Positions 1,261 to 11,136 of a stretch of DNA of 11,162 nt are shown here, piece by piece. Source of the stretch: an uncultured Eubacteriales bacterium (lineage in GTDB: Bacteria > Bacillota > Clostridia > Christensenellales > CAG-138). The stretch spans positions 1 to 11,162 of the forward strand of contig URSN01000060.1 of the NCBI GenBank assembly GCA_900550525.1, given 5' to 3'. Numbering within the stretch: position 1 is the first letter of the stretch; each line of letters starts with the position of its first letter. The notes beneath the pieces were generated by a model. The model searched no databases and had not been told where the DNA came from. It saw only the letters and a program-made list of their open reading frames with translations. Both the position numbers and the translations under genes were made by a program.

Positions 1261-2197
1261 CGCCGCCTCCCGATAGCGCGTCCAGTTCGTCGAGCATGCG
1301 CATGGCCGTCGCCCGGTCGGGCACGGTCGCGCCGCTGGCTCTGGCATGCCCGCCGCCGCCGTATTTGACGGCGATGGGGTTGATGTTGTGCCGGCTGGCG
1401 CGCAGCTCGCACAGCACGCCGCCCTCCGTTTCGGCAAAGCTCGCCCAGATGCCCACGCCGCGGATGTCGGCCATCAGGCCCACCGCCCCGCGCGAGAGCG
1501 TGAACGCGTCCGCGCCGAGCGCGCGCGCCGCCGCCGCATCGGTGTACAGATAGGCGACGCGGTGCGGCGTGAAGCGGATCTGCATGGTCAGCTGCGCGCG
1601 CAGTCGGATGTGGGAGAACTCCTCCTCGTACAGCGCGGGATAGATGCGCGCCGGCTCCGCGCCGCAGCGCAGCAGGAAGGCAGCCCGCTCGAACGTCTCC
1701 GCCGTGGTGGAATCGTAGCGAAAGCGCCCGGAATCCGTCACCATTCCGGCGTAGAGCGCGTTTGCCGCCGCCGGCGGGACGGCGAGGCCGGCCTCCATCG
1801 CCAGCGCCGTGACGAGCCCGCAGCAGCTTTCAAACCCGGGCTCGATCACCTCCACATCGGCAAACCGCCCGGAAAAGACGTGGTGGTCGCTGCGCAGCGT
1901 CCGCGCGGCGAGCGCGTAGCGGCCGTCGCTCACCAGGCGCGGCGCGCCGCAGTCGAGGATGACGGACAGCGCGCCGTCAAAAAAGGCGTCCGGCACATCG
2001 TCGGCGCAAAAGCCCGTCAGCGCCGCGTACCGGCCGGGGCCGTCGCCGACCACGCGCACCTCTTTTTGGGGATAATTTTCCAGCAGGATGTGCCTGAGGC
2101 CGATCTGGCTGCCCAGCGCGTCGCCGTCCGGGTGTTCGTGACGGTGCAGGATGATGCAGTCGTGACGGGCGATCTCGCTTAGCGCAAGCTCAAACAT
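1244..2197 (-). CDS. DHH/DHHA1 phosphoesterase, NrnA-like (upstream paralogue)
   Basis: A 317-residue protein of the same family and domain order as its neighbour. Motif I is RHEHPDGD (H20, D24, D26), motif II D82 in LDCG, the DHH triad D104-H105-H106, and motif IV D155 in GMVTDSGR. The DHHA1 domain has GGGGHARASG (280-289). All catalytic residues are kept, so both paralogues are probably active. It deviates before the triad (LRSDHH, where the other copy has VIDHH), and the C-terminus ends in a Gly/Asp-rich tail. The ATG at 2197 is preceded by AAAGGAA at 9 nt. It is the first gene of a two-gene minus-strand operon, probably driven by the promoter at 2259-2287. The two copies may have diverged in substrate, for example nanoRNA against pAp or pApA; that cannot be decided from sequence. 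Confidence 0.92.
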   Translation of the reverse strand: MFELALSEIARHDCIILHRHEHPDGDALGSQIGLRHILLENYPQKEVRVVGDGPGRYAALTGFCADDVPDAFFDGALSVILDCGAPRLVSDGRYALAARTLRSDHHVFSGRFADVEVIEPGFESCCGLVTALAMEAGLAVPPAAANALYAGMVTDSGRFRYDSTTAETFERAAFLLRCGAEPARIYPALYEEEFSHIRLRAQLTMQIRFTPHRVAYLYTDAAAARALGADAFTLSRGAVGLMADIRGVGIWASFAETEGGVLCELRASRHNINPIAVKYGGGGHARASGATVPDRATAMRMLDELDALSGGGDARGD

Positions 2198-2258
2198 GGG
2201 GGGGAGTTCCTTTCGGCGCGGCGGCGCGGCGCTGCGCGCACGGCCCGCTGTCCCGTCC

Positions 2259-2287
2259 AGTATACCATCGTTTCTCCGGCGCGTAAA
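2259..2287 (-). promoter_or_regulatory. Putative sigma-A promoter for the DHH gene pair
   Basis: On the minus strand, TATACT (2264-2259) is preceded by TGG, which makes an extended -10 (TGnTATACT). TTTACG (2287-2282) lies upstream with a 17-nt spacer and matches four of six -35 consensus positions. It sits about 60 nt upstream of the DHH gene start and back-to-back with the ATP synthase promoter. Confidence 0.5.
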
Positions 2288-2339
2288 GGCGCGCGGATGC
2301 CGCGGCGCGAACGGCGGAGAAAAAATGCGGCGAAAGGAT

Positions 2340-2368
2340 TTGACAAGCGGTCATATCGCTACTATAAT
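2340..2368 (+). promoter_or_regulatory. Consensus sigma-A promoter of the ATP synthase operon
   Basis: A perfect -35 TTGACA (2340-2345) and a perfect -10 TATAAT (2363-2368) are separated by exactly 17 nt. They sit in a locally AT-rich patch of otherwise very GC-rich DNA, 50 nt upstream of the first operon gene. Transcription should start near 2375. A full consensus match fits strong constitutive expression of the energy-converting enzyme. No operator repeat was seen around it. Confidence 0.88.
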
Positions 2369-2417
2369 ATCAGAAAAACGTGGGGGGGAATGGCAGGGGA
2401 GAGAGGCGACATACGGT

Positions 2418-2744
2418 ATGGAGAGCGTAGCGGTCGGCATGGTTTTGGCGTTCCTGGGCGGCGCGTGCGTCGCCGTGTGCAACGCATGGATCAGCCGGGC
2501 GAAATGGTTTCAGGAGGGCGCGCGCCTGTATGCGTGCTTTTTTGTTCGCCAGACGCTCAATGTGGCCTATCTGGTCGGGCTGTATCTGCTCGCGCCCCTG
2601 CTGCCTTGGGATACGGCGCTGCTGCTGCTGGGCGGCGCGCTGGGGCTCACCATTCCGTCGTTCTTTTTGATCCGCCGCCTGCTCCGCAAAAGCGGCCGGA
2701 GCGCCGCTTGTGCGCCGGAGCAGCACAGTTCCGCAGGGAGGTGA
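2418..2744 (+). CDS. Small membrane protein heading the atp operon, AtpI-like
   Basis: A 108-residue protein with about three hydrophobic segments (roughly 5-22, 39-62 and 66-86) and a basic, then polar, C-terminal tail (IRRLLRKSGR onward). The position immediately before atpB is where AtpI, a poorly conserved membrane protein thought to assist c-ring or a-subunit assembly or ion supply, is found in many bacteria. The assignment rests on location, size and topology, since I see no diagnostic motif. The ATG at 2418 is preferred: hydrophobic sequence begins there, a GGGGAG/AGAGG purine tract lies about 12 nt upstream, and it follows the promoter at 2340-2368. The frame is open upstream to 2196, but that part overlaps the promoter. 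The stop is 6 nt before the atpB start. Confidence 0.65.
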   Translation: MESVAVGMVLAFLGGACVAVCNAWISRAKWFQEGARLYACFFVRQTLNVAYLVGLYLLAPLLPWDTALLLLGGALGLTIPSFFLIRRLLRKSGRSAACAPEQHSSAGR

Positions 2745-2750
2745 TTGGGC

Positions 2751-3434
2751 ATGGGCGAGGCGTCTGAGGTCGTCATCCCGCTCTTTGGCGTGCTCGATAT
2801 CACGGGCGAGGTGCTCCTCATGTGGGCGATCTGCCTCGTGCTGGTGGTCGTGTCCGCCGTTGCGACCCGCCGGCTCAGGGAGCGGCCGGGCCGCCTGCAA
2901 AACGTGCTGGAGACGGGCATCGAGTATCTGGACGGGTTCTTCACGGGGCTGCTGGGCAAGCGCGCCGCGCGCAAGTACTTCTATTTCCTGGGCTCGCTGT
3001 TCATCTTCATCATCTTTTCCAACTATTCCGGGCTGATCCCGGGCGTGGGCCTGACGCCGTATTTCAAGGCGCCGACCTCGTCGCTGTCGGTCACGGTGGG
3101 GCTTGGGCTACTGGCGTTCGTCTTTTTGCAGCTGGCAAGTCTGCGCGCGCGCGGCGGGCGCGGCTATCTCAAACGCTTCATCACGCCCGTGGCGTTCATG
3201 CTGCCGCTGCTGGTGCTCGACGAGTTCATCAAGCCCGCGTCGCTCGCGCTGCGTCTGTTCGGCAACATCTTTGGCGAGGAGACCGTGACGGAGGAGCTGT
3301 ACAACCTGCTGCCCATCGGCGCGCCGGCGCTGATGATGGCGCTCTCGCTCCTGTTCTGCGCGATACAGGCCGTCGTGTTCACGATGCTCGTGTCCATCTA
3401 TCTGGATGAGGGGATCGAAATAGAAGAGGCGTAA
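2751..3434 (+). CDS. atpB: F-type ATP synthase subunit a
   Basis: The 227-residue integral membrane stator subunit that forms the two ion half-channels against the c-ring. Hydrophobic segments lie near 21-38, 79-98, 114-131, 144-160 and 190-217. The hallmark fourth-helix motif SLALRLFGNIFGEE is present, with the essential arginine at R168 followed by N172. The LIPG motif (95-98) and the C-terminal segment AIQAVVFTMLVSIYL are typical. A TTG at 2745 is in frame, but GGGAGG at 2736-2741 is only 3 nt from it and 9 nt from the ATG at 2751, so the ATG is chosen. It is the second gene of the operon. The length is at the short end for bacterial a subunits. Confidence 0.96.
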   Translation: MGEASEVVIPLFGVLDITGEVLLMWAICLVLVVVSAVATRRLRERPGRLQNVLETGIEYLDGFFTGLLGKRAARKYFYFLGSLFIFIIFSNYSGLIPGVGLTPYFKAPTSSLSVTVGLGLLAFVFLQLASLRARGGRGYLKRFITPVAFMLPLLVLDEFIKPASLALRLFGNIFGEETVTEELYNLLPIGAPALMMALSLLFCAIQAVVFTMLVSIYLDEGIEIEEA

Positions 3435-3476
3435 TCCGCCGCAACACCACTATATTGAGGATTGGAGAACAAGAAA

Positions 3477-3707
3477 ATGACTGATTCTGGGATCATTGCC
3501 ATCGCCGCCGCGCTGACCATCGCGCTTAGCACCATCTGCCCCGCGATCGGACAGGGGCTTGCCGCCAAGGCGGCCATGGAGGGCATCGCCCGCCAGCCGG
3601 ACGCGGCCAAGGATATCCGCTCCACGCTGATCATCGCCATGGCGCTCATGGAGGCGCTGACCATCTACGGCCTGCTGATCGCGTTCGTGCTGACCACGCG
3701 CATCTGA
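3477..3707 (+). CDS. atpE: F-type ATP synthase subunit c
   Basis: A 76-residue, two-helix membrane hairpin; about 8-15 copies form the rotor ring. The polar loop ARQPDA (38-43) and the ion-carrying glutamate E59 in [10 protein letters not shown] are clear. Q26 aligns with the Na+-ligand glutamine of sodium-type c subunits, but the Ser/Thr that should follow the glutamate is A60-L61. Proton coupling is therefore more likely than sodium coupling. The usual glycine repeat of helix 1 is degenerate (T19, C21, A23, then G25, G27). The ATG at 3477 is chosen because GGAG at 3464-3467 lies 9 nt upstream; the in-frame TTG at 3462 would overlap that site. A stem-loop follows the stop. Confidence 0.96.
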
Positions 3708-3759: not shown

Positions 3760-4176
3760 ATGACCATTCAAGTATCCGTCCTGATCTGGACGGTGATCAC
3801 GTTCTGCGTGCTGATGTTCTGCCTGAACAGGTTCCTGTTCAAGCCGCTGCTCTCGCTCATGGACGCGCGCGAGGAGAAGATCGCCGATGCGCGCCGGCGC
3901 CATGAGGAGGGCGCGCGCGCCCTTGCCGAGGCGCAGGAGGCCGCCGCTGAGCGGCGCGCCCTTGCCGAAAAGCAGGCCCACGCCGCCAGGGAGCGGGCGC
4001 TTGCCGAGGCGCACGCCGCCGCCGAGGCCGAGATGCACGCGGCGGACGGGCGCTACGCGCAGCTGCTGAGCGACCGGCGCGAGCAGGCGGCGGCGGAAAA
4101 GCAGCAGCTCCAGCAGGGGCTTGCCGCGGGCATGGAGGAGCTGGTGGCGTCCTTTGTGCAGAAGCTGTCCAGCTGA
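3760..4176 (+). CDS. atpF: F-type ATP synthase subunit b
   Basis: A 138-residue peripheral-stalk subunit. An N-terminal membrane helix (about 5-27, LIWTVITFCVLMFCLNRFLF) is followed by the typical KPLLSLMDAREEKIADA segment and a long Ala/Glu/Arg-rich helix to the end, as expected for the b coiled coil. It is somewhat shorter than common b subunits (around 155-170 residues). GGAGGG lies 6 nt before the ATG. A second, b'-like segment begins the next gene, so a b/b' heteromeric stator is likely. It ends 16 nt before that fusion gene. Confidence 0.93.
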   Translation: MTIQVSVLIWTVITFCVLMFCLNRFLFKPLLSLMDAREEKIADARRRHEEGARALAEAQEAAAERRALAEKQAHAARERALAEAHAAAEAEMHAADGRYAQLLSDRREQAAAEKQQLQQGLAAGMEELVASFVQKLSS

Positions 4177-4192: not shown

Positions 4193-6400
4193 ATGGAATT
4201 TGTGTATGCGCTGATCAATTTCGCCCTGCTTGCGGGCGTGGTGTACCTGTTCGGCCGCAAAAAGATCGCCGCGATCTTCCGCGACCGCCTTGCGCGCATC
4301 AACAGCGGCCTCGACCTTGCGGAAAAGCCGGTGCCGCAGCCGCCCGCGCAGGAGGAGCTGCCCGCGCCCGAGGCGAAGCTGCGCTCGGACGAGCTGGGCG
4401 CGCCGGCGCGCGCCGCCGTGCAGGAGCATGAATACCGGCTCCAGGCGCAGTTCGACGAGGCGTGCGAGGATCTGCGCCGCACCATGCTGCTCGAGGTGCG
4501 CGACGAGCTGGTGGAGCGCGCGCAGGCGCAGGCCGCCGAACGGCTCGCCTGCGAGCCGTACCGCTCCAGCCTGCACAGCCACGAGGGCGAGATGGTGGAC
4601 GGCGTGCTCGAGGAGATCTGCCTCTCCCCCGGGGACAGGGTGTACCTGGTGGACCATGACGTGCTGTACGTCACGCTGACCTCGGCCAGCCCGATGGACG
4701 GCGAACTCGTGGCCCGCATCCGCGCGCGCGTGGACGAGCTGCTCGCGCAGGTGGACGGCCGCGCGTCGTTCTGGACGCGGGTGGACGAGTCGCTCATCGG
4801 CGGCTTCCAGCTGCGCATCGGCGATACGGTCTACGACCGCTCCGTCGTCAACAGCATCGCGCGCCTGGGCGAGGTGCTGCGCGAACAGGAGATCACGGAC
4901 GCCGGCGCGCCCGCCGCCATCGTTTCCGCCATGGCGGATACCGTGGCGCACGTGCCCGTGGAGCACGACGAATACCAGGTGGGCCGCGTGCTCACCGTGT
5001 CCGACGGCATCTGCTGGCTCGACGGCGTGTCCGACATCATGTTCGGCGAGGTGGTGGAGTTTGCCTGCGGCGAGCGCGGCATGGTGCTCGACATCGAGCA
5101 GGACCGCGTGGGCTGCATCATCTTCGGCCGCTATGAGCACATCGAGAGCCTCAGCCGCGTGCGCCGCCTCGGCATCATGATGAGCGTGCCCGTGGGCGAT
5201 GAGCTGCTCGGACGCGTCGTGGACGCGCTGGGCAACCCCATCGACGGCAAGGGCCGCATCTGGTCGAATGAGAGCCGCCCCATCGAGTGCCGCGCCCCGG
5301 CCATCCCGGACCGCAGGTCCGTCTCCGTGCCGCTGCACACGGGCATCAAGCCCATCGACGCGCTCACGCCGATCGGCCGCGGGCAGCGCGAGCTGATCAT
5401 CGGCGACCGGCAGACGGGCAAGACGTCCATCGCCATCGACACGATCATTAACCAGCGCGGCAAGGGCGTGGCCTGCATCTATGTGGCCATCGGCCAGAAG
5501 GAGGCGGCCGTGGCGGAGATCGTCTCCAAACTCCAGGCGCACGGCGCGATGGAGTATACCACGGTCGTGTGCGCGACCGCGTCCAGCTCCGCGTCGATGC
5601 AGTACATCGCGCCGTTTGCCGGCGCGGCGATGAGCGAGTATTTCATGTACAACGGCCGCGACGCGCTGATCGTCTACGACGACCTGTCCAAGCACGCCGT
5701 GGCCTACCGCGAGCTGTCGCTGCTGCTGCACCGCCCCTCCGGGCGCGAGGCGTACCCGGGCGACATCTTCTACCTGCATGCGCGCCTGCTCGAGCGCGCC
5801 GCCCAGCTCAACGACGAGGCCGGCGGCGGCTCCGTCACCGCGCTGCCCATCATCGAGACGCAGGCGGGCGACATCTCCGCCTATATCCCGACCAACGTCA
5901 TCTCCATCACCGACGGGCAGATCTTCCTCGAGACGGATCTGTTCAACGAGGGACAGCGCCCGGCGGTCAACGTGGGCCTTTCCGTGTCGCGCGTGGGCGG
6001 CGCGGCGCAGACGAAGCTGATGAAACAGGTCTCCTCGCAGCTGCGCATGAACCTTGCGCAGTACCGCGAGCTGGCGACGTTTGCCCAGTTCGGCTCCGAC
6101 CTTGACGAATCGACGCGCCGGGTCATCGCCTCCGGCGCGCGCATGATGGCCGCGCTGCGGCAGGGCCGGTACGCGCCGCTTGCGGACTGGAAGCAGGCGC
6201 TGCTGCTGTTCGCCGTCTCCGGCGGCAGCGCGGCGGACGTGGCGCCCGAGGATATGGAGGCGTACGAGGCGCGCCTGTACGCATACTTTGAGGCGGAGCA
6301 GCCGGAGCTTGTCAAACGGCTCGAAAAGGGCGCCAAGCTGGATGCGGAGGCGACCGCGCGCCTTGAGGCGGCGCTTGCCGCGTTCCGGGAGGCCGCCTGA
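4193..6400 (+). CDS. atpA: ATP synthase b'-delta(C-terminal domain)-alpha fusion protein
   Basis: A single 735-codon frame with three modules. Residues 1-140 are b'-like: membrane helix 5-20 ([16 protein letters not shown]), [13 protein letters not shown], a Pro-rich interruption at 45-59, and a helix ending in [13 protein letters not shown], as in b C-termini. Residues about 157-230 match the delta/OSCP C-terminal domain: [13 protein letters not shown] and the signature [15 protein letters not shown] with G203-G204. Residues about 240-735 are a complete alpha subunit: N-terminal beta-barrel ([11 protein letters not shown]), P-loop GDRQTGKT (404-411), VYDD (494-497), signature [10 protein letters not shown] (590-599) and arginine finger R600. 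The delta N-terminal bundle, about 105 residues in normal delta, is missing. No separate atpH exists here. The start has only weak SD-like purines (GAGAGA, GAAG). Fused b-delta is known from mycobacteria; joining these to alpha is unfamiliar to me. The C-terminal alpha domain is normal. Confidence 0.95.
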
Positions 6401-6401
6401 T

Positions 6402-8732
<2,331 letters not shown>

Positions 8733-8733
<1 letters not shown>

Positions 8734-9140
8734 TGAACAGCTTCATCCTCAACATCACGGCTTCCAGCGGTGAATTCTATCAGGGCTACTGCGAGAGCCT
8801 GCCCCTGCCCACCGGCGACGGTGTGTATGGCGTGCAGGCCGGGCACAACCCCGTGCTGGTGGCCATCCACATGGGCATCCTGCACTTTGAGGTGAACGGT
8901 GAAAGCCAGGACATCCTGGTAGGCGACGGCATTGCCGAGGTGACACCTGCCTATGTGATGGTGCTGGTGGACAGCGCCGAGCGCCCGGAGGATATCGACA
9001 AGAACCGTGCCGAGGCTGCCCGCATCCGTGCCGAGGAGCGTTTGCAGCATCAGCAGAGCATGCATGAATATTATCAGAGCAAGATCGCGCTCGACCGTGC
9101 GATGCAGCGCCTGCAGGCCGCTGCAAAGTACCGGCGCTGA
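8733..9140 (+). CDS. atpC: F-type ATP synthase subunit epsilon
   Basis: A 135-residue F1 subunit that couples gamma to the c-ring and can inhibit ATP hydrolysis. The N-terminal beta-sandwich (1-82) includes GDGVYGVQAGHNP and GIAEV. The C-terminal helical hairpin (about 87-133) starts with IDKNRAEAARIRAEE. The stretch IDKNRA (88-93) matches the I/L-D-x-x-R-A motif linked to ATP binding in Bacillus-type epsilon subunits, so ATP-sensed inhibition is plausible. It starts in an ATGA-type overlap with the atpD stop, with GGTGAGG about 5 nt upstream. Its 15 alanine codons are 9 GCC, 3 GCT, 2 GCG and 1 GCA, unlike the GCG-rich genes upstream. It is the last gene before the operon terminator. Confidence 0.95.
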
Positions 9141-9171
9141 GAATGAGCCGCATCTGCCAGGACCAGATCTG

Positions 9172-9224
9172 AAAAAAGAGCATCATTTGTATCCATTGAG
9201 GGTGCAAAGTGATGCTCTTTTTTT
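9172..9224 (+). terminator. Rho-independent terminator of the atp operon
   Basis: A perfect 14-bp inverted repeat with core GAGCATCA/TGATGCTC (9172-9185 and 9210-9223) includes flanking A6/T6 and is followed by T's to 9224. An inner TTTG/CAAA pairing can lengthen the stem with a one-nucleotide bulge. It lies 31 nt after the atpC stop. The A-run on the 5' side would also allow termination of minus-strand transcripts, but no minus-strand gene approaches it. Confidence 0.92.
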
Positions 9225-9234
9225 GTTTCAGGCT

Positions 9235-9246
9235 GTTCCATGGAAC
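9235..9246. promoter_or_regulatory. Perfect 12-bp palindrome, candidate operator
   Basis: GTTCCATGGAAC is a perfect inverted repeat covering the -35 region of the promoter at 9259-9264, with 12 nt between them. Placement over a poor -35 box fits binding of a dimeric regulator, either an activator replacing the missing -35 or a repressor. Only one copy is in the window, so this is suggestive only. Confidence 0.35.
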
Positions 9247-9258
9247 GCTGCTTTCGTG

Positions 9259-9264
9259 TATAAT
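9259..9264 (+). promoter_or_regulatory. Putative -10 element for the isomerase gene
   Basis: A perfect TATAAT lies 50 nt upstream of the ATG at 9314 and downstream of the atp terminator. At 16-18 nt upstream there is no good -35 (TTCCAT at best), and the TG of an extended -10 is not in register. This suggests a weak or activator-dependent promoter. The short leader contains a 5-bp stem, CCCGC (9280-9284) with GCGGG (9292-9296), just before the ribosome binding site. Confidence 0.55.
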
Positions 9265-9313
9265 AAGGTCAATGCACTCCCCGCGTGTTGTGCGGGAAAG
9301 GAGGAGGTTTTCC

Positions 9314-10162
9314 ATGATCCAATTCGGCCTGCGTCTGCATGACGCGGAAAAGCTGCCCGTTGAACAGGTGCTGCCGCTGGTGCGCCAGAAAGGCTTTACC
9401 TGCGCCCATGTGGCTCTGAGCAAATCCTTCAAGGAGCTGCCCTGCACCCCCAGCGCCCTGACCCCCGGCTATGCGCTGTATCTGCGGCATCTGTTTGAGA
9501 AAAACGGCATCGACATTGCCGTGCTGGGCAACTACCTGAACCTTGCCCACCCGGATGCGGATGCCCTGCACGCCATTCAGGAAAAATACTATGCCCATAT
9601 CCGCTTTGCAAGCCTGCTGGGCTGCGGAATGGTGGGCACCGAGACCGGCGCACCCAACGCGGAGTACAAATTCTGTCCGGAGTGCCGCAGCGACGAAGCC
9701 CTTGCCACCTTTATCAAGAACTTCAAGCCAGTGGTGCGCTGTGCCGAGCAGTACGGCGTGACCATTGCCATTGAGCCGGTGGTCAAGCACATCGTATACG
9801 ATGCCAGACGCGCCCGCACCGTGCTGGACGAGATCGGCAGCCCGAACCTGCAGATCCTGTTCGACCCCGTCAACCTGCTGAACATGGAAAATGTGGACCG
9901 CCGCGAGGAAGTGTTCGCCGAGGCCATCGAGCTTCTGGGTAAGGTTTTCGCCATGATCCACTTTAAGGATTTCCTGCGCAAGGATGCGGGCGGCCAGCTG
10001 GCTGCTACGGGTGCAGGGCAGGGAGGCATGGAGGACTACCGCACCATCCTGCGGTTTGCAAAGCAGGAAAAGCCCTATATCTTTGCAACGCTGGAGAATA
10101 CCACCCCGGAAAACGCGGTGGAATGCCTGAACTACCTGAAAAAGCAGTACGACGAGTGCTGA
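9314..10162 (+). CDS. Sugar phosphate isomerase/epimerase-like TIM-barrel protein
   Basis: A 282-residue cytoplasmic protein of the xylose-isomerase-like TIM-barrel (AP endonuclease 2) superfamily. Members use divalent metal to isomerise or epimerise sugars, inositol derivatives or related compounds. Probable metal ligands are at the expected strand ends: E154 (IAIEP), D184 (LFDPVN), H216 (IHFKD) and E261 (ATLENT). An early GNYLNLAHPD motif (72-81) and GTETG (108-112) resemble the substrate-pocket strands of family members. The ATG at 9314 has AAAGGAGGAGG ending 6 nt upstream; in-frame codons further upstream overlap the promoter. It is a single-gene unit bounded by terminators. No transporter or sugar kinase is next to it, so the substrate cannot be guessed. 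Codon usage matches atpC and the permease gene rather than the rest of the atp operon. Confidence 0.88.
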   Translation: MIQFGLRLHDAEKLPVEQVLPLVRQKGFTCAHVALSKSFKELPCTPSALTPGYALYLRHLFEKNGIDIAVLGNYLNLAHPDADALHAIQEKYYAHIRFASLLGCGMVGTETGAPNAEYKFCPECRSDEALATFIKNFKPVVRCAEQYGVTIAIEPVVKHIVYDARRARTVLDEIGSPNLQILFDPVNLLNMENVDRREEVFAEAIELLGKVFAMIHFKDFLRKDAGGQLAATGAGQGGMEDYRTILRFAKQEKPYIFATLENTTPENAVECLNYLKKQYDEC

Positions 10163-10177
10163 ACACTTTATAACAAG

Positions 10178-10228
10178 AAAAACATCTGCAAGCTTTGCCC
10201 GGAATGGGGCAGCTTGCAGATGTTTTTT
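10178..10228. terminator. Strong bidirectional terminator between convergent genes
   Basis: A perfect 17-bp inverted repeat (10178-10194 with 10211-10227; core ACATCTGCAAGCT) has A5 on its left and T6 on its right. The loop can pair further as GCCC (10197-10200) with GGGC (10207-10210). On the plus strand it ends the isomerase transcript 15 nt after its stop. On the minus strand the T5 run would end the permease transcript about 95 nt after its stop. The 95 nt between this hairpin and the permease stop are AT-rich and show nothing else recognisable. Confidence 0.93.
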
Positions 10229-10323
10229 GTATCAGATGAAGTTTATGGTTCGGCCTTTTACAAATTGCAATTAAGAAGTAGTTTCGCTGAAAATGCCCAG
10301 AACGAAAGCGGAGGACATTAAGA

Positions 10324-11136
10324 TCATTCCAGATTCAGCTTATGTTCCATCAGCCAGCGGGTCAGCAGAAAGTATCCTGCGGCAAAGGCGATGCTGACCG
10401 CCAGCCCGAACAGGGTGGTGAACGCACTGGGCGCAGCAATAGAAACATCTACACCGCCAAGGGTGGGATCGGAAACAGCCTGCAGCATGTCGGCACTGCT
10501 GACACCGGAGCTCAGCCAGTTCTGCAGGAAGGACAGCAGGAAAAATGCCAGAATACCGGCCGGGACCATGTGCTTTTTGAACTGGTGGCCGATCATGCAA
10601 GCGGCATAGATGCACAGGATGCTGGACACCAGTGCCACCAGCCCGTTCAGCGTTTCAAAGACCAGCCAGAGCCACCCGGAGCTGCCGGTCATGCGGAAGA
10701 TCTCTCGGAAGATCTCTACCACTTTCTGCCACAGCTCCGGCAGCTGCTGCAGGGCCGCGCTGTTCAGAGACAGAGCCAGCAGCATCACCGCAAAGGAGAA
10801 AATACCCACGATGCTGCTGCAAAGCATCCACACCACGCTGGAGATCAGCTTGGAAAGGATGAGCTGGCTTTCCGTCACCGGCAGGGTGTGCATCAGGTAG
10901 CCTTCGCGGCCCAGCAGATTGCGGGTGAAGCGGGTCACAATGGTCATCACGGACACCACTGCCACTGCAACGGCTACGACCATGTAGGCGAACAGCAGCA
11001 GAGATGCAAAGTTGTCCTTGGAAGAGCTGCGCAGGGAAAAGCCGCTCAGCACTGCCAGCGCAACAAGGGCCAGATACAGCCCGCCGTAGGTGCGGCCGGT
11101 GGCCTTGAATTCATATTTTAACAGCTGTTTCAGCAT
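10324..11136 (-). CDS. ABC-2-type transporter permease-like membrane protein
   Basis: A 270-residue integral membrane protein with about six hydrophobic segments (17-36, 43-68, 98-124, 155-182, 190-209, 237-259). The N-terminus MLKQLLKYEFKATGR and the cytoplasmic stretch RNLLGREGYLMHTLPVTESQLILSKL (first 20 residues at 73-92) resemble permeases of Gram-positive ABC-2-type exporters. Those usually work with an ATPase encoded alongside, often exporting or sensing peptides or lipids. No ATPase gene is inside the window; if present it would lie beyond the right edge on the same strand. The ATG at 11136 has GGGAGG about 7 nt upstream. The stop is at 10324, and transcripts would run into the hairpin at 10178-10228. 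The substrate is unknown. Confidence 0.8.
   Translation of the reverse strand: MLKQLLKYEFKATGRTYGGLYLALVALAVLSGFSLRSSSKDNFASLLLFAYMVVAVAVAVVSVMTIVTRFTRNLLGREGYLMHTLPVTESQLILSKLISSVVWMLCSSIVGIFSFAVMLLALSLNSAALQQLPELWQKVVEIFREIFRMTGSSGWLWLVFETLNGLVALVSSILCIYAACMIGHQFKKHMVPAGILAFFLLSFLQNWLSSGVSSADMLQAVSDPTLGGVDVSIAAPSAFTTLFGLAVSIAFAAGYFLLTRWLMEHKLNLE

Follow-up and report, generated by a model that had tools for sequence, protein, structure and literature searches.

An uncultured Eubacteriales bacterium encodes, in a single uninterrupted reading frame, a b-type stalk arm, the C-terminal domain of delta and a complete alpha subunit of F-type ATP synthase. The fused protein probably belongs to a natural multi-stalk F-type ATP synthase, whose covalently built peripheral stalks would number up to three. 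Support for this reading comes from the absence of the delta N-terminal domain and the fusion of the delta C-terminal domain to alpha, as in the enzyme designed by Ueno et al. (2025). The gene lies in a stretch of 11,162 nucleotides (contig URSN01000060.1, assembly GCA_900550525.1), here called the window, with the following features.

2196..2744, forward strand: membrane protein opening the operon, possibly ATP synthase I chain-like, of uncertain start (PF03899, E 0.0017, 19.2 bits, below the cut-off of 25.1)
2745..3434, forward strand: a subunit, atpB (PF00119, E 5e-44)
3462..3707, forward strand: c subunit, atpE (PF00137, E 4.2e-18; the family consensus includes PaigQG)
3760..4176, forward strand: separate stalk subunit of b/b' type, predicted to pair with the fused b arm (PF00430, E 1e-13)
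4193..6400, forward strand: fused b-deltaCTD-alpha gene, 735 codons encoding 735 aa, no internal stop (ORF list, Pfam, NCBIfam, AF2 model)
4193..4324, forward strand: fusion residues 1-44, b membrane helix running on into the cytoplasm (AF2 helix 2-44; conserved INF...GRK...IF..RRERI)
4325..4390, forward strand: fusion residues 45-66, a break in the fused b arm that is conserved, rich in proline and predicted to be disordered (pLDDT <50 at 48-65)
4388..4609, forward strand: fusion residues 66-139, b stalk helices (AF2 helices 66-118, 123-129 and 131-139)
4628..4885, forward strand: fusion residues 146-231, delta/OSCP C-terminal domain without the N-terminal domain; VDESLIGG is residues 197-204 (PF00213 and AF2)
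4886..4909, forward strand: fusion residues 232-239, short, eight-residue delta-to-alpha linker (AF2 and spacing count)
4910..4951, forward strand: fusion residues 240-253, helix where the alpha N-terminal helix belongs (AF2 model)
4967..6397, forward strand: alpha subunit body (TIGR00962, 724.9 bits)
5402-5425, forward strand: alpha P-loop GDRQTGKT, residues 404-411 (sequence)
5990-5992, forward strand: alpha arginine of SVSRVG, residue 600 (sequence)
6402..7238, forward strand: gamma subunit (PF00231, E 6.8e-49)
7315..8733, forward strand: beta subunit (PF00006, E 1.7e-72)
8733..9140, forward strand: epsilon subunit, both domains (PF02823 and PF00401)

The original prediction had proposed one open frame of 735 codons at 4193-6400 that joins b, delta and alpha in their usual gene order. 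The frame, its domain coordinates and the fusion itself are borne out by Pfam, TIGR00962 and a profile built from residues 1-245 of ten relatives. The alpha part is complete, as had been claimed: the TIGR00962 atpA score exceeds its cut-off of 484.45 bits, and barrel, nucleotide-binding and C-terminal domains occupy residues 263-731 (Pfam). Residues G404, D405, R406, G409 and K410 are invariant in a 49-row alignment, as is R600 of SVSRVG, which we take to be the arginine finger. For the stalk part, the ATP-synt_B (PF00430) match at residues 3-95 scores 22.6 bits, below the cut-off of 28; PF00430 is precomputed for many members of the fusion family. The ten-relative profile matches b subunits in the PDB over about its first 120-147 positions (e.g., 6n2y_b2 3-122, E 1.6e-6) and delta/OSCP C-terminal domains over about 160-237. 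The anchor had been described as b'-like. A stalk part is indeed present, but it may be b rather than b', the weak best NCBIfam match being b (PRK07352, 22.4 bits; cut-off 137), and it is called b here. The separate gene at 3760-4176 best matches subunit B' (PRK08476, 71 bits, below the cut-off of 118), and both it and the fused b part match the single b gene of three conventional operons. The further suggestion, that alpha would be tethered to the membrane, is supported too.

The delta C-terminal domain with its VDESLIGG motif had likewise been recognized, but no inference had been drawn from it; that delta lacks its N-terminal domain is the mechanistically decisive feature. The OSCP match (PF00213, 39.8 bits; cut-off 22.3) spans fusion residues 155-228 and covers profile positions 100-171 of 172 only. 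By this profile, the N-terminal helical domain, which binds the alpha N-termini, is absent from the window fusion. The profile start falls at 95-101 in the fusions of ten other genomes. In the AF2 model, short helices (123-139) are all that separates the stalk helix from the delta C-terminal domain, which folds as helix-strand-helix-strand-strand-strand-helix. The model (mean pLDDT 79.4, pTM 0.66, from the 49-row alignment) is of a single chain and carries no information on assembly; parts of the alpha core (515-523, 565-574 and 581-604) also have pLDDT <50. The three chains of 9jc1 head the list of Foldseek matches of the model in the PDB (best E 2.6e-56; TM-score 0.82 by target, 0.65 by query). 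The matches listed by VIA-align are ordinary alphas, and the absence of 9jc1 from the 50 listed proves nothing.

Two further features characterize the 192 full-length fusions found by homology. At least one proline lies at residues 45-66 in 187 of them and at least two in 185; among 90 rows of separate b subunits, one has a proline within residues 36-60 and 26 have one anywhere within 36-125. The delta-to-alpha spacing is nearly invariant, the span corresponding to residues 216-262 measuring 46 or 47 residues in 191/192. An exact pattern of GD..YL plus GDRQTGKT was rejected as a family signature for being too strict (89/192).

By its Pfam matches, the operon is of the F type. The c subunit of the window and its family shows a QG...MEALTIYG pattern, which resembles that of the proton-type c subunits of cyanobacteria. 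In the triple-fusion clade, the a subunit reads APTaSLSVT at a place occupied by PTxDxNxT in several other operons. The a motif PTSxxSVT and the c pattern were dropped as marks of the triple-fusion enzyme: both also occur in the conventional operon L201 and therefore give no independent support. Elsewhere in the window, two adjoining minus-strand frames (280-1437 and 1244-2197, overlapping as listed, starts uncertain) both encode DHH/DHHA1 proteins, as if duplicated. GC falls from about 0.64-0.72 to 0.55-0.58 past epsilon (9001-11000), over a xylose-isomerase-like protein and a weak match to an ABC-2-type membrane protein. Rfam gave no match at gathering scores within the window.

The mechanism suggested by these features follows from work on an engineered enzyme (Ueno et al., 2025; Nat Commun 16:5410, PMC12229609). 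The authors reason that the delta N-terminal domain, lying on the three-fold axis, restricts the enzyme to a single stalk. They engineered a Bacillus PS3 delta-DeltaN-alpha FoF1 (structure 9jc1), which carries up to three stalks and a-subunits. Cryo-EM found 0, 1, 2 and 3 stalks on 15, 51, 26 and 8% of particles, an average of 1.26 that was ascribed to grid loss; gels gave about two stalks, and the H+/ATP ratio doubled (5.8 +/- 0.4 vs. 3.0 +/- 0.2). Both sequence features of this design, a missing delta N-terminal domain and a C-terminal domain fused to alpha, are present in the window protein.

In the natural enzyme, each alpha would be made with its own peripheral-stalk arm, running from the b membrane and stalk helix, with its proline-rich break, through the delta C-terminal domain into alpha. 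Loss of the delta N-terminal domain would leave the three-fold axis atop F1 unoccupied, so that equivalent delta C-terminal domains could be presented by all three alphas. One stalk would form from each covalent arm together with a separate b-type subunit, so that an enzyme could have up to three, and an a subunit could be recruited to the c ring by each of them. The enzyme would be expected to gain a raised H+/ATP ratio and the ability to work at low proton-motive force, and the covalent link should prevent stalk loss. We infer that the proline-rich break would act like a hinge, allowing three arms to reach one rotor. A fuller version of this scheme, put forward tentatively and as somewhat short of probable, has three built-in covalent stalks and three a-subunits on one c ring, with protons per turn equal to three times the c number and the proline-rich break fitting three arms to one rotor. 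Anaerobic gut bacteria might then make or spend ATP at proton-motive forces that stall ordinary enzymes.

The number of arms can be approached through the gene content of relatives; the statements that follow rest on their genomes rather than the window's own. In nine of the ten genomes that carry the triple fusion, the fusion is the sole PF00213 match, no second alpha scores above the TIGR00962 cut-off, and there is one a gene. In seven of these nine, completeness is at least 90% and contamination at most 5%; the other two, G203 and G180, are 62% and 80% complete, and the alpha of G180 is itself below the cut-off because a contig end cuts it. Since an F1 head needs three alphas and these nine genomes hold no other delta or F-type alpha, three arms per enzyme are expected, a consequence that goes beyond the original prediction. 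Judged from gene content, all three alphas of an enzyme should carry the b-delta arm, unless alpha is released.

Gene content bears equally on the role of the enzyme. The b-delta-alpha enzyme might act as an accessory pump, the main work falling to another rotary ATPase, a view that is compatible with a multi-stalk architecture and that we regard as unlikely, though to be taken seriously. The tenth genome, G129, has a second, conventional F-type set, and G155, G057 and G313 have further alpha/beta-type matches on other contigs, below the cut-off, that may represent V/A-type ATPases. However, the other nine genomes lack a second F-type alpha above the cut-off, a second delta and a second a subunit.

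Two of these observations also count against the multi-stalk reading itself: the nine genomes have one a gene each, and in G129 the conventional alpha could mix in. The engineered PS3 enzyme counts against it as well, three stalks having been seen by cryo-EM on only 8% of particles. The fusion could be real and the enzyme nevertheless single-stalked, with one arm paired to the separate b and to a while the other two serve as extra membrane anchors or stay idle. Besides the single a gene, this alternative can draw on the 15 and 51% of engineered PS3 particles that showed no stalk or one, and on their average of 1.26 (PMC12229609). Yet the three delta domains are identical and have no N-terminal domain to break the symmetry, and Ueno et al. 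attribute the low count to grid loss, their gel and H+/ATP data giving about two stalks on average (PMC12229609). A single-stalk enzyme is accordingly considered improbable.

Processing of the chain, by a protease or an internal start that frees alpha, would solve the stoichiometry by supplying one b-delta and three alphas per enzyme. Start codons were surveyed in 72 fused genes less than 90% identical to one another, the window included. An ATG or GTG with an SD-like match occurs within residues 230-262 in 17/72 genes, above the mean of 10.9 in other stretches of the protein but within their range of 0-33; for ATG only, the count is 11/72 (mean 5.7, range 0-18). These counts give no clear internal-start signal, since they fall within the range of the other stretches. 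Residue 254 alone combines a start codon with an SD-like match in 9/72, among the highest single positions, although several positions inside alpha equal or exceed it. Residue 247 is an ATG in the window itself; it is a start codon in 11/72 genes, in no case accompanied by an SD match. Among the 72 genes, no conserved internal start for a free alpha was found. The near-constant length of the span 216-262 argues for a joint in use, and a cleaved chain would still be without the delta N-terminal domain. Proteolytic release of alpha is conceivable, but processing in either form appears very unlikely, and full-length chains with three arms are the preferred reading.

The fusion is conserved beyond the window. 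From 7995 candidates of 404-1286 aa, a search with fusion residues 1-245 returned 309 proteins at E<=1e-3, of which 120 were listed. Among the 197 homologues listed in all, 192 are 727-755 aa long and five are shorter. A scan of genome contigs confirmed 236 places of the fusion, and the best 80 were taken for locus analysis; by their titles they come from Clostridia, Oscillospiraceae, Christensenellaceae and similar MAGs, in many cases of ruminant-gut origin. Ten loci from the order-level draw described below, several sharing genomes with the 80, brought the set to 90. An open frame of more than 700 aa is present in 87 of these loci, and the other three (L063, L086 and L116) run off a contig end; the fusion is clearly not confined to this assembly. 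BLAST found a at 86 loci, c at 88, a separate b at 89, gamma at 78 and beta at 77, many of the other loci being short or cut; the single locus without a separate b, L033, begins inside the fusion. No separate delta C-terminal domain was matched by BLAST at the 90 loci, a search of limited reach, as the chimeric part of L035 does hold a cut separate delta. In L035 (5225-6742 and 7524-9900; contig labelled Prevotella), GC drops within the beta gene, from about 0.61 to 0.44, and the contig then passes into another a-c-b-delta set, the one that includes this separate, cut delta. Transfer into Prevotella, which this contig would suggest, was rejected, and the contig was treated as chimeric on these two grounds; its fusion gene was retained in the trees.

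That the fusion is an assembly or sequencing artefact or a decaying gene, as the shortness of the window contig (the longest contig of the matching protein cluster has 11225 bases) and the chimeric look of L035, though inside beta, might suggest, is practically refuted already, because relatives carry the same frame in 87/90 loci and in 72 genes below 90% identity, with near-uniform length in 192/197 listed proteins and catalytic residues invariant in 49 rows.

In the order of G056, the triple fusion was found in 10 of the 295 genomes drawn (E 5e-68 or better), with weaker matches, mostly to b or delta alone, in 60 further genomes. Within the family of G056 it occurs in 8/61 genomes, the centre included, and a draw across the phylum recovered it in 1/398, namely G056, the centre of the draw. 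Of 107 genomes in the order that are at least 90% complete, 54 have an F-type alpha at E<=1e-150. These genomes yielded 57 alpha frames: six of at least 737 aa, all of them triple fusions, 15 of 579-681 aa, and 36 of at most 547 aa. Six of the mid-length alphas were read (G161, G094, G055, G040, G077 and G054), and all have a delta C-terminal-like stretch before alpha, confirmed by Pfam in G054.

Two-part deltaCTD-alpha fusions occur as well. A two-part query matched 366 proteins at E<=1e-3 among 684 candidates; of the 120 matches listed, five bear a name, in each case Faecalibacterium. Pfam confirmed two-part fusions in other families of the phylum (G394, G410, G330, G378 and G442). Nine of the ten proteins tested by Pfam have the delta C-terminal domain only. 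The tenth, in G183 (L181, G183:C11, 161-2170, minus strand), joins a nearly whole delta (OSCP 26-171 of 172) to alpha in one 670-aa frame and is a plausible intermediate between separate genes and the N-terminally cut fusion. Faecalibacterium-type genomes (two-part loci among L007-L010, L012, L014-L017, L019 and L026-L030) contain two sorts of deltaCTD-alpha fusion, and in some of them, G020 and G002 for example, a conventional alpha is encoded elsewhere too.

Triple-fusion alphas form one clade with support of 100/100 in each of two trees, which include 27 and 19 triple-fusion rows; in the first, the cut loci L132, L134, L136 and L138 are labelled separate but derive from fusions. The second tree, which also contains the nearly whole delta-alpha fusion L181, splits conventional alphas (28 rows plus L018, labelled two-part through an upstream frame extension although its delta is separate) from fused ones on a branch supported at 82/86. 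A single origin of the delta-alpha fusion is compatible with these data, because this branch separates conventional from fused alphas; the trees are unrooted, and the long-branched two-part rows L187, L178 and L026 are of unsure place.

The original prediction knew of no fusion continuing into alpha. Natural delta-DeltaN-alpha fusions are in print: the text of Ueno et al. (PMC12229609) names Acidaminococcus fermentans and two UniProt entries and predicts multi-stalk enzymes there. Searches of open-access literature, supplementary files aside, found no report of a b-delta-alpha protein. In the accessible text of one study, b-delta-alpha denotes gene order, the "chimera fusions" are transcription units, and the fused protein is delta/b of Gordonia and some mycobacteria (PMC5709465); that of ProAD mentions a b-delta fusion in N-ATPases (PMC11738941). 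What is new here is that b is fused too, that a conserved proline-rich break lies near the membrane, and that the delta-alpha spacing is nearly invariant.

Among known systems, the engineered PS3 enzyme is the closest in design: its delta N-terminal domain was removed, its delta C-terminus is joined by a short linker to the alpha N-terminus, and it provides the best fold match to the window model. It differs in being man-made and in holding b as a separate dimer by contact only; in the window, one b belongs to the fused chain and another b-type subunit is encoded separately. The natural two-part fusions, in Acidaminococcus fermentans, the two UniProt entries, Faecalibacterium and others, likewise join the delta C-terminal domain alone to alpha, but have no b in the chain in the sequences compared here; Acidaminococcus, set beside the window by its published description (PMC12229609), might conceivably carry a fused b as well. 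Actinobacterial b-delta (PDB 7jg5_d and 8j0s_d), the best PDB match of the residues 1-245 profile, combines b and delta in one chain beside a separate b, but is about 445 aa long with alpha separate; the first 246 residues of the window protein fail the actinobacterial-type B/delta model PRK13428 (20.2 bits; cut-off 328).

Ueno et al. call for a stably bound multi-stalk enzyme to relate a-subunit number to H+ stoichiometry (PMC12229609), and the triple fusion may offer one, since with b fused too its arm would be covalently held. A three-stalk design has so far been built in the laboratory only, and this bacterial clade, with many members from ruminant guts, predicts its natural counterpart. 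With a stalk of its own on every alpha, such a clade makes the existence of multi-stalk F-type enzymes directly testable. V-type ATPases carry three peripheral stalks around their rotary head. The window enzyme may work like such a three-stalk head, although it would do so with other subunits, encoded in an F-type operon.
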